The translations under genes and the position numbers were made by a program. 64,000 bases of DNA from positions 248,001 through 312,000 of the forward strand of contig JALVSY010000016.1 in the NCBI GenBank assembly GCA_027036135.1. The letters are read 5' to 3'. The DNA is from Pyrodictiaceae archaeon (GTDB lineage: Archaea; Thermoproteota; Thermoprotei_A; Sulfolobales; Pyrodictiaceae). Below are positions 26,930-46,290 of this stretch, piece by piece. The notes below the pieces were generated by a model. The model was given only the letters and a program-made list of their open reading frames with translations, ran no database searches and was not told the origin of the DNA. Each line of letters starts with the position of its first letter. Position 1 is the first letter of the stretch.

Positions 26930-28342
26930 CTAATATTGTTTCTCTTCTGCTGTAATTGCTTGCTTCGCTTTTGTTGCGGTAGGCCATAATAATACGTAGA
27001 TAACAAAGTACGCTGCCGCTGCTAACAAGAATGCTAGAAACGCTATTGTTAACGCTTTCACAGGCGTTATTACGGCTAATTGATTCACCGGGCTCATTAC
27101 TGAACTCGCTTGCGGGAATAACTTAGCTATACCCATAGCCTTCAATATATGATAAGTAGTTGGCGTTGTATCTAAGAGAACTACTGAGTTTATTGTACTA
27201 ACAATTGTAGGAAGATACTGCTTCGGTATATGTATACCGTAGCTCGCTAGCTTATTTAGAGCTATATGACCCGTTAATATGTCAGGCCACGCTGCCACGA
27301 AGAAGGGATACTGACTAAACGCGTTAAGGAGTTCTCCAGCAGCTATAGTAGCTATACCAATTATTCCGCCGAATAATAGTACTTTTGCATGCCTCTTTGT
27401 TAATCTATTGCCAAGAAGAGCTGGGAGCGAATAAGCTAGGGCAAATATTTGGATCGCTACAAATACCATCTTTAATACAAAGAGCCATGATACATTGTAG
27501 TAGGCTTTACCTCCATCAACACTCCAGCCAAGAGGAGCAAATATATTATTAAACTTATAAGGGATATTCTCTAAGCTTATAGTATACCAGATCCCCAAAG
27601 GAATCATCAAGCCTAATCCTATTGCTGCAGGCTTAGCTAACATTTTTGCAACTTTTAAGGCTCCGCGTTTTTCTTCATCGTCCCCTGATAGGAAGTACTT
27701 ATAGACCATTGCACCTATTACTACAAGCGATGTTACAGTGAAAGCACCTACTATGCTCTTAAGATATAACGGCCAAAATGTAGGATTCTTAGTAATAGCA
27801 TCTACAACATTTAGATAGAACTTATGATGCACCGGATCATAGCCAAGCCCTGCTGGTATATTTAAGAATGCGAATACCGCTCTGAAGCCAAACGGTATTA
27901 GTAATGCCGATATACCTAGCAAGAACCCTATGAAATAATGTGCCTTCCTACTCCAGCGGTCCCATCCGTACCAAAACGCTGATATACTAAAGAAGTGCAG
28001 CACTATCATTAGTATAGCTATACCGAACGGTATCAATGTTATACTGCCAGCAAATCTAAGAAAGTGTGGATAAAAACTTAGTAGGAATACTGTAAATGCC
28101 GTCGCAAATACTCCTCCAACACCATAAGTTGCAGCATAGAATCGCATAAGAGACTTAGCAGGTTTCTCTAGCTCTTTTTCGCCTCTATCGGCTCTCCACT
28201 TAATATATGGTATTAGCCAAGCTAACCCCATTCCTAGATTAACCATAGTTATATGTATGGTAAATACTAGTGCAAGCATTATTGGTGCATAGCCCACCAT
28301 TATCTCCTCACCATTTTTGAGCAAGTTATCTATGTCATACAT
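26930..28342 (-). CDS. CydA' second subunit of bd-type oxidase
   Basis: 470-residue CydA-like membrane protein with about nine helices. It shares the family architecture (YGVGGVFATAFTVFLLSFYPHF in the helix III-IV region, FWYGWDRWS after it) but lacks the CydA GRxPW motif and the long quinol loop. A His in the first helix (TIHITMVN) is retained. Paired head to tail with the true CydA 49 bases upstream, and with no CydB, it fits the CydAA' arrangement described in some crenarchaea, in which the second copy replaces CydB. Role: structural partner or second haem-bearing subunit of a quinol oxidase. Confidence 0.78.
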   Translation of the reverse strand: MYDIDNLLKNGEEIMVGYAPIMLALVFTIHITMVNLGMGLAWLIPYIKWRADRGEKELEKPAKSLMRFYAATYGVGGVFATAFTVFLLSFYPHFLRFAGSITLIPFGIAILMIVLHFFSISAFWYGWDRWSRKAHYFIGFLLGISALLIPFGFRAVFAFLNIPAGLGYDPVHHKFYLNVVDAITKNPTFWPLYLKSIVGAFTVTSLVVIGAMVYKYFLSGDDEEKRGALKVAKMLAKPAAIGLGLMIPLGIWYTISLENIPYKFNNIFAPLGWSVDGGKAYYNVSWLFVLKMVFVAIQIFALAYSLPALLGNRLTKRHAKVLLFGGIIGIATIAAGELLNAFSQYPFFVAAWPDILTGHIALNKLASYGIHIPKQYLPTIVSTINSVVLLDTTPTTYHILKAMGIAKLFPQASSVMSPVNQLAVITPVKALTIAFLAFLLAAAAYFVIYVLLWPTATKAKQAITAEEKQY

Positions 28343-28391
28343 GGTACATAATTATAAAATATTTAGATAAATAATATAAGTTAATTAAAAA

Positions 28392-30176
28392 TTACCTAGT
28401 TTGGGGTTTTCCAGGTACCCATAGTATTCGGTAAACTGCATATACCAAGCCAAATGCTATTGCTAAGAAGAACACCGCCACCAAAGCAAGTTCCCAGGTC
28501 GGCGGGGCATTAGGTGTTATTATCTCATCAACAGTTACTAAGCCATATATTGCCCATGGTAGTCTACCAGTCTCTCTTACAATCCATCCCATTGTACTCA
28601 CTGTCTGTGCTATTACTGCTGCAACTGGTGCTAATCTCAGCCAGAACCTTGAGGGTATTGTACTTCCTCTTATTCCCACTATATTTAATGTCTTATCTAT
28701 AAGGCTCCATTTGTCTCTAATAACTATGAGCGCTACTATAAGAGCGTAGAATCCTATCAGTAGTGCTAGTCCTATCTTTGTATAGTATACATAATGGATT
28801 TCAATTGGTGGTTTACAAGGCTCTGGAGGCATTCCATTAAGCTTACAGTAATTAGCTGGTATTTTATCATAGCTTGGCAACTTGGCGCTCAATGATCCGT
28901 ACGCTAGTAGCGGCATTATCTTGTCTGTACCTAGGAGTCTTGATAGACTAAATATGTGTTTTGAAGTGCCCTCCATTGCTGCGAACTTCTCTGGTTCCCA
29001 ATGAGCTACTGCACGCCCCATCTCATGGCCAGCTATGAATCCTTGATAAGCTATAACTATGGCTGTAAATACAGCTGCAAATTTAAAGGCTTTCTCGATG
29101 TAGCGACGGTACTCTGGGTCAGCGTTTTCTGGCATTTTGAGCAGGCGCAGTGCATATCCAGCCAGTACAGTAAATCCAGTTACTGTTAATCCGGCACCAA
29201 TACCATGCATTAATGTGGGAATATAAACGGGGCTCTTAAAGGCGAAGCTCATTATACCAACATGTCTCATCCATACATTTATTATATAGGTTAGGATGTT
29301 CTTTACTGGTATGTTAAGTAATAGCTGTGCTGGTGTAGTTTTTGTCCCAGCCAAGGCAAGACTACTTATTGGTATACCAAGCTTAGCTGCAAGTTCTTTT
29401 ACTTGATTCAGAGTTAGGTGCTGAACTGTAGTTTTATTGATGAAGCTAGCCAATATGCTATTCTTGAGCTTCGCTCCATTAAAGTATTCTCTCATTAACT
29501 CCTGCATAATGTTCGACGGGATGGCTACCTTTACAGCATCCTTAGTTGAGCCTAGTATGCTTACATGAACCATTTTTAGCGCTGTTATATTTAGTAATGG
29601 TATTATATCCTTAGGTATGTATAGCATTATTTTTGGATAACCTTGACTATAGAGATATGTGCCATTTGGTATATATGCTGGCATTATACCGTATGGAGCT
29701 GTCATAGCACTGTTTACACTAAGTATCATAGCACCGCTATACCAAGGCCCTATAAATCCTAGTAGTGCAATCGCTGCTAGCACTTTTGGCGAGAATTTAT
29801 TCCATCCATACCATAACATGTAAAGGAATATCACTTCTAGCATGAATGCAAATATCTCCGCATAGAATGGGAAATAAACTCCAGTAGCACCACCAATCTC
29901 AACAAAACGTGGCCATAAAAGCACCAAGCCAAATTCTACCAAGGTACCAGTAGCAGCACCTACCGCAAACACTATTATGAAGCCTTTAGCAAGAGTTCTT
30001 GCTATCCGCATCCAAACTGCATCCTTAGTACGCAGATAGAATAAGAGTGCTAGGAAAACCATAAATGGCAAGCCCAGCACATACTGAAGGATAATCCAGT
30101 GTATATCAATCCCTATAAACGATAATATCCTATCTCCCAGCGGGGAAAACTGCGTCCAATGAACAACGGCACTCAT
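28392..30176 (-). CDS. cydA: Cytochrome bd-type quinol oxidase subunit I
   Basis: 594-residue CydA. Diagnostic features: TGTLVEFGLVLLWPRF with the conserved Glu of the haem pocket, the LEVIFLYMLWYGW helix, MGRAVAHWEPEKFAAMEG which contains the Lys and Glu of the quinol-binding loop, and GRLPWAIYG near the C terminus, equivalent to the GRQPW motif. A long insert (about residues 175-290, mostly polar) sits where CydA has its variable periplasmic loop. It reduces O2 with quinol electrons at the membrane. Upstream of the ATG are GAGGCGA and, about 60 bases away, a TTTAAAAA box. It forms an operon with CydA'. Confidence 0.85.
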   Translation of the reverse strand: MSAVVHWTQFSPLGDRILSFIGIDIHWIILQYVLGLPFMVFLALLFYLRTKDAVWMRIARTLAKGFIIVFAVGAATGTLVEFGLVLLWPRFVEIGGATGVYFPFYAEIFAFMLEVIFLYMLWYGWNKFSPKVLAAIALLGFIGPWYSGAMILSVNSAMTAPYGIMPAYIPNGTYLYSQGYPKIMLYIPKDIIPLLNITALKMVHVSILGSTKDAVKVAIPSNIMQELMREYFNGAKLKNSILASFINKTTVQHLTLNQVKELAAKLGIPISSLALAGTKTTPAQLLLNIPVKNILTYIINVWMRHVGIMSFAFKSPVYIPTLMHGIGAGLTVTGFTVLAGYALRLLKMPENADPEYRRYIEKAFKFAAVFTAIVIAYQGFIAGHEMGRAVAHWEPEKFAAMEGTSKHIFSLSRLLGTDKIMPLLAYGSLSAKLPSYDKIPANYCKLNGMPPEPCKPPIEIHYVYYTKIGLALLIGFYALIVALIVIRDKWSLIDKTLNIVGIRGSTIPSRFWLRLAPVAAVIAQTVSTMGWIVRETGRLPWAIYGLVTVDEIITPNAPPTWELALVAVFFLAIAFGLVYAVYRILWVPGKPQTR

Positions 30177-46119: not shown

Positions 46120-46290
46120 CCCGCCGTAGCTCAGCGGCAGAGCGCCCGGCTGTAGGTGGGGCTCCAGGCCCCCCGCGCGCCTAACTCCCCGTACACGGGG
46201 TGGATGAGGGCGCGTCGGCCAAAGGGCCTATGGGGGCCTGGGGGAGCAGATACCGGGTGGTCCGGGGTTCGAATCCCCGCGGCGGGACCA
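46120..46290 (+). tRNA. tRNA-Tyr (GTA) with a long intron
   Basis: Exon 1 46120-46155 and exon 2 46252-46290 join to a full cloverleaf: acceptor CCCGCCG/CGGCGGG, D stem GCTC/GAGC, anticodon stem CCCGG/CCGGG, loop CTGTAGA (anticodon GTA), T arm CGGGG-TTCGAAT-CCCCG, discriminator A, and encoded CCA. The C1-G72 pair and A73 are the archaeal tyrosine identity elements. The intron is about 96 bases at the canonical 37/38 site. Confidence 0.94.
46156..46251 (+). other. tRNA-Tyr intron
   Basis: About 96 bases. Its ends can pair (GCTCCAGGCCCCC near the 5' end with GGGGGCC...GGGGAGC near the 3' end), giving the helix of a bulge-helix-bulge splice site. Inside is a second hairpin CCCCGTACACGGGG (about 46187-46200). 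Long for an archaeal tRNA intron; no homing endonuclease frame fits. Confidence 0.8.

Follow-up and report, generated by a model that had tools for sequence, protein, structure and literature searches.

Can a cytochrome bd-type oxygen reductase be assembled without CydB? The question is raised by two neighboring genes in a 64,000-nucleotide stretch of a Pyrodictiaceae archaeon genome (contig JALVSY010000016.1; hereafter the window), which lie on the same strand as intact open reading frames, cydA first, with a gap of 49 bases between them (Table 1). A sequence-only reading of this DNA had taken both products for CydA-type proteins, and matches of each to PF01654 bear this out. Beyond PF01654, neither CydA nor its smaller partner, CydA', matched any Pfam family at E <= 0.001; searches against NCBIfam returned only matches below cut-off for CydA and none for CydA'. 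The majority of close relatives of CydA' begin at or after Met15 of the window's reading frame, so the true start may be Met15 (position 28300).

Table 1. Positions of the cydA–cydA' pair and of the insert-coding stretch within the window
Feature	Position	Strand	Description
cydA	28392..30176	(-)	Catalytic subunit; 594 aa; PF01654, E 4.4e-63
cydA'	26930..28342	(-)	CydA paralogue, putatively in CydB's place; 470 aa; PF01654, E 1.7e-21
Insert-coding stretch of cydA	29229..29699	(-)	Approximately residues 160-316, ahead of the H324 helix

Genes for triosephosphate isomerase and fructose-1,6-bisphosphate aldolase/phosphatase lie upstream of the pair and in the same direction, while a 204-aa protein with no family match over cut-off in Pfam or NCBIfam and the alpha subunit of a 2-oxoacid:ferredoxin oxidoreductase are encoded downstream. 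Among the eight loci compared for gene order, some of which are short, the arrangement of aldolase/phosphatase, isomerase, and pair is repeated in Pyrodictium sp. DIMAG01 alone and is absent from the other seven. The closest named relatives by CydA' identity are this Pyrodictium sp. DIMAG01 MAG (61%) and an 'Acidilobaceae archaeon' MAG (58%). Elsewhere in the window, a tRNA gene of 168 bases (46120-46287) was found by Rfam and missed by ARAGORN; it probably contains an intron of ~95 bases.

Turning to the missing subunit, a profile search with PF02322 (CydB), which as a control gave hits in 10 of the 14 reference genomes, found nothing in the window's own genome (99.61% complete, 40 contigs) and nothing over cut-off in any of 300 genomes of the phylum. 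The sequence-only reading, which had proposed a CydA with a CydA-like partner and no CydB, is upheld by these results, including with respect to a cydB gene elsewhere in the genome, for which the search came back empty. Six weaker matches occurred in the phylum, and two of these (in genomes G105 and G116) fall on genes matching CydA'. A hidden CydB was rejected on the basis of the null profile search of the own genome. The name CydAA', denoting a CydA and a CydA-like partner with no CydB by profile search, fits the pair.

The design is more widespread than the 'few crenarchaea' to which it had been assigned. The CydA' query was matched by 55 of the 300 phylum genomes at E <= 0.001, with CydA-like genes making up the weakest matches, and an adjacent, same-strand pair is present at 42 of 44 archaeal loci. 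The 44 loci comprise the window, three named MAG contigs, and 40 regions drawn, one per genome, from the 54 other matching genomes; the remaining 14 matching genomes, and the second match that several genomes contain, lie outside this sample. Chance or misassembly was rejected as an explanation, since the reading frames are intact and the same pair, adjacent and on one strand, recurs at these 42 loci, a regularity beyond chance. The remaining two loci (L076 and L077) carry one CydA-like gene each. Within the window's family, CydA was matched in 12 of 20 genomes, including 5 of 5 of the genus (own genome counted); the eight family genomes without a match are mostly incomplete, although one of them, G074, is rated 99% complete. 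In genome G208 (L040 and L086), cydA is frameshifted near residues 62-67 and CydA' is cut to ~383 aa, reflecting either decay or sequencing error.

In VIA comparisons, the predicted structure of CydA (AlphaFold, pLDDT 88.7) is best matched by chain 7ose_A, the CydA of E. coli bd-II, with 417 residues aligned at Z 39.6 and rmsd 2.6 A. The haem ligands of the bd-II enzyme are given in PMC8585947 as His186 and Met393 (b558), Glu445 (b595), and His19 (d). The window's CydA carries H26, E107, E114, H324, K397, E402, K467, E535, and GRLPW (537-541), the E. coli counterparts of which are, in the same order, H19, E99, E107, H186, K252, E257, M393, E445, and GRxPW. The quinol-site residues K397, E402, and GRLPW and the active-site haem ligands H26 and E535 are thus all kept, and H324 is the b558 histidine. 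E107 and E114 are likely proton-path residues, the role of their counterparts in E. coli. Across the archaeal CydA rows, the E99, E107, K252, E445, and R448 positions (E. coli numbering) are kept in 44 of 44, the H19 position in 43 (the gap is the frameshifted L040), the H186 position in 42, and the E257 position in 35, and the W451 position is occupied by Trp in 33 and Phe in 11. The span from the K252 to the M393 position measures 70 residues in the window's CydA, compared with 73 in Niallia and 141 in E. coli.

The second b558 ligand position departs from the E. coli pattern, with K467 in place of Met393, a change that the sequence-only reading had passed over. Methionine occupies this position in all six reference CydA (bacteria and one haloarchaeon), whereas the 44 archaeal rows, counted by re-reading the R391 column of the 44-row alignment, contain K (25), M (17), or H (2). 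All 11 loci of other family members, among which at least three are repeat genomes already counted, have Lys, and the tree requires at least four changes between Lys and Met, the two His rows excluded. Because only K, M, or H occurs at this position, all able to bind haem iron, a ligand site is the best interpretation, and K467 probably holds b558 in place of methionine. An alternative that we doubt, and yet consider a serious contender, is that Lys467 is no haem ligand, b558 being five-coordinate or bound by another residue, and that Lys and Met are simply tolerated there. The evidence for ligation is indeed drawn from sequences, and the first MAFFT alignments put the Lys under R391, two positions away from Met393. 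With five more reference CydA, however, both MAFFT modes placed the Lys opposite Met (6 of 6), and a phmmer alignment to 5doq likewise pairs the two; four of the added references are plasmid-borne genes beside an annotated cydB, and the fifth (Nonomuraea) lies in an unannotated stretch. The restriction of the position to three iron-binding residues also speaks against mere tolerance. So does the neighborhood of the Lys: in each of the 25 K-type rows, the four residues on either side include no Met, His, or Cys.

Returning to Lys467 as the probable ligand, a literature search for Lys as a b558 ligand found none; the lysine passage that was found concerns the Q-loop, and Murali et al. 2021 may discuss the position. 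Within the window's clade, His stands at the E107 position of CydA' in 13 of 14 K-type rows and in 0 of 5 M-type rows; since the five M rows are one clade, we do not claim a link between the Lys of CydA and this His. A separate variation is seen in the two single genes L076 and L077 (genomes G125 and G256, respectively), in which the H186 position holds Met and the Met393 position holds His, as though the b558 ligands had traded helices; these two rows are near copies.

A long polar insert in the larger copy had been singled out in the sequence-only reading. The insert is real but not peculiar to this copy: the N155-to-H324 span measures 169 residues in the window's CydA versus 36-40 in the six reference CydA, an excess of ~130 residues over canonical CydA, and in the window's 19-row clade this stretch measures 137-196 residues, against 79-89 and 52-53 in two other paired groups and 40 in the single genes L076 and L077. 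In the AlphaFold model of the whole CydA, the insert is predicted to be a folded alpha/beta domain of strands and helices (pLDDT mostly >90) rather than a loose loop. A Pfam search of the insert gave a best E of 0.12.

Several genes elsewhere in the genome bear on the likely electron donor. A pair of PF02621 (MqnA/MqnD-type) proteins over the Pfam cut-off is encoded next to a radical SAM gene whose closest models are CofH/MqnC/MqnE, and a UbiD-family decarboxylase adjoins a UbiA-type prenyltransferase. None of the menaquinone equivalog models reaches its cut-off, and NCBIfam gives no match for the PF02621 proteins; for these reasons, we rate menaquinone as likely only. As for other oxygen reductases, the genome has a single COX1-family match (728 aa; L094:757-2943, contig 7), which has no match in NCBIfam and is closest to the NO reductase 3ayf (E 2e-56). 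It was accordingly rejected as a second O2 reductase, no haem-copper O2 reductase having been found, which leaves CydAA' as the only O2 reductase found in the searches made (bd and COX1 families). A haem O synthase (L095) scored over its NCBIfam cut-off and is encoded away from the NO-reductase-like gene; haem O may serve the NO reductase, as in Pyrobaculum.

The presence of the quinol-site residues is not in itself proof of quinol use, to judge by their distribution in the alignments: Lys is present at the K252 position in 44 of 44 CydA, even where GRxPW is missing, as well as in 19 of 42 CydA'. An electron donor other than menaquinol for the CydAA' of the window's clade could be reflected in the altered b558 ligand position (Lys467), and CydAA has been reported from archaea in which no known quinones were detected (PMC12542729). 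We nevertheless consider such a donor unlikely, in view of the retention of K397, E402, and GRLPW and of the likely menaquinone genes in the genome; menaquinol is our preferred donor for the window's pair. Eight other pairs (L060-L064, L066, L071, and L073) lack GRxPW in either subunit, and their CydA combine GRYPF or GRVPF with Ala at the W441 position. Judging from these motifs, the eight pairs perhaps use a different donor.

CydA' was also modeled (AlphaFold, pLDDT 90.3), and its best VIA match is again 7ose_A, with 372 residues aligned at Z 37.3 and rmsd 2.6 A. Foldseek searches with this model retrieved CydB chains too (E 1e-5 to 2.5e-4), more weakly than CydA chains; together with the two of six weak PF02322 matches that fall on CydA'-matching genes, this fits, without proving, a placement of CydA' in the structural position of CydB. 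Among the PDB matches listed, none was a CydAA' chain.

At the residue level, the window's CydA' has lost the equivalents of GRxPW, H186, and E445. The view that the partner lacks GRxPW and the quinol-loop features holds in part: SQYPF replaces GRxPW and Phe stands at the E257 position, but Lys is retained at the K252 position, as it is in 19 of the 42 CydA' rows. Other catalytic positions have diversified across these rows, with A (28) or S (14) at the E99 position; H (13), R (11), S (7), N (5), A (5), or Q (1) at the E107 position; K (17), H (14), A (7), or S (4) at the H186 position; and A, D, G, or S in the E445 column. Two residues are invariant in 42 of 42 rows: H30, at the H19 position, and E337, a Glu in the W441 column, one helical turn (four residues) before the E445 position. 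Their conservation suggests that a haem or a proton path persists in CydA'. Six CydA' (L053-L057 and L059) retain His and Met at both b558 positions, unlike that of the window, and the ancestral CydA' may on this account have carried a b558 haem.

A phylogeny of both copies, which had been proposed as a check, separates CydA' from CydA on one branch (SH-aLRT 100, in a rapidly built tree whose long branches were flagged). CydA' forms one side of this branch; the CydA rows need two label changes on the tree, because the reference CydA fall among them. Alignments A2/A3 cover 31 of the 42 CydA' and 31 of the 44 CydA, the 13 CydA rows outside them being L040, L060-L066, L071, L073, L074, L076, and L077. 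That CydA acts alone or as a homodimer, with CydA' a separate or decaying protein such as an O2/NO sensor or scavenger, is very improbable: G208, with its frameshifted cydA and shortened CydA', indicates that the pair can decay, and most catalytic residues are gone from CydA', yet the genes are adjacent at nearly all of the archaeal loci, the CydA and CydA' subtrees are similar by eye, and the CydA' alignment has 17 invariant columns in 31 sequences.

Taken together, we assign the pair with good confidence to archaeal CydAA', within the cytochrome bd superfamily; its activity is probably that of a menaquinol:O2 reductase. In the proposed mechanism, electrons from menaquinol would enter at the Q-loop of CydA (K397, E402) and then cross low-spin haem b558, ligated by H324 and probably K467. 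O2 would be reduced to water at the two-haem site (H26, E535), with E107 and E114 likely on the proton path. We infer that CydA' packs on CydA at the location of bacterial CydB, without most of the quinol site and perhaps still with a haem or a proton path (H30, E337). The likely role of such a complex would be the removal or respiration of traces of O2 in a menaquinone-based hyperthermophile, an O2 reductase thus being retained in a lineage known for anaerobic growth at hydrothermal vents.

A broader proposal, which we offer tentatively and hold to be rather doubtful as a whole, has two parts. In most archaeal CydAA', b558 would be held by His and Lys through a recurrent exchange, which would bring its potential down to suit menaquinol at high temperature; and CydA', given its invariant His and Glu, would bind an additional haem, so that the complex would contain more than three haems. 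The exchange of Lys and Met at the b558 position offers a direct way to examine the influence of ligand chemistry on electron entry. More generally, CydAA' implies that two copies of the catalytic subunit can make up a bd oxidase, a point relevant to the origin of CydB.

Compared with canonical CydAB (E. coli bd-I and bd-II), the window's pair shares the CydA fold, the ligand positions H19, H186, and E445, and the K252, E257, and GRxPW positions; it differs in having no CydB, in the replacement of the b558 Met by Lys, and in the ~130-residue insert. The CydAA' type has already been described in Caldivirga, and the pair is ordinary as a gene system. The Caldivirga maquilingensis CydAA' was reportedly expressed by Murali, Gennis and Hemp in 2021 and is said to use quinol and to contain b-type haems only. 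Like the window's pair, it is archaeal and reportedly consists of two CydA paralogues without CydB, with the quinol-site residues of CydA kept; the window's pair belongs to another lineage, its nearest named relative being Pyrodictium sp. The OR-N type CydAA' of Nitrospinota/Nitrospirales also has two CydA-type subunits. In Murali et al. 2021, the quinol-binding site is reportedly absent from the OR-N type, unlike in the window's CydA, which has the quinol-site residues. The bacterial OR-N enzymes are called CydAA' in PMC10839748 and PMC12342949, the former stating that OR-N CydAA' likely takes cytochrome c instead of quinol. For CydAA in another archaeal lineage, a role in oxygen protection has been suggested (PMC12542729). 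What stands out in the window's pair is the Lys at the b558 ligand position of CydA, along with the invariant His and Glu of CydA'.
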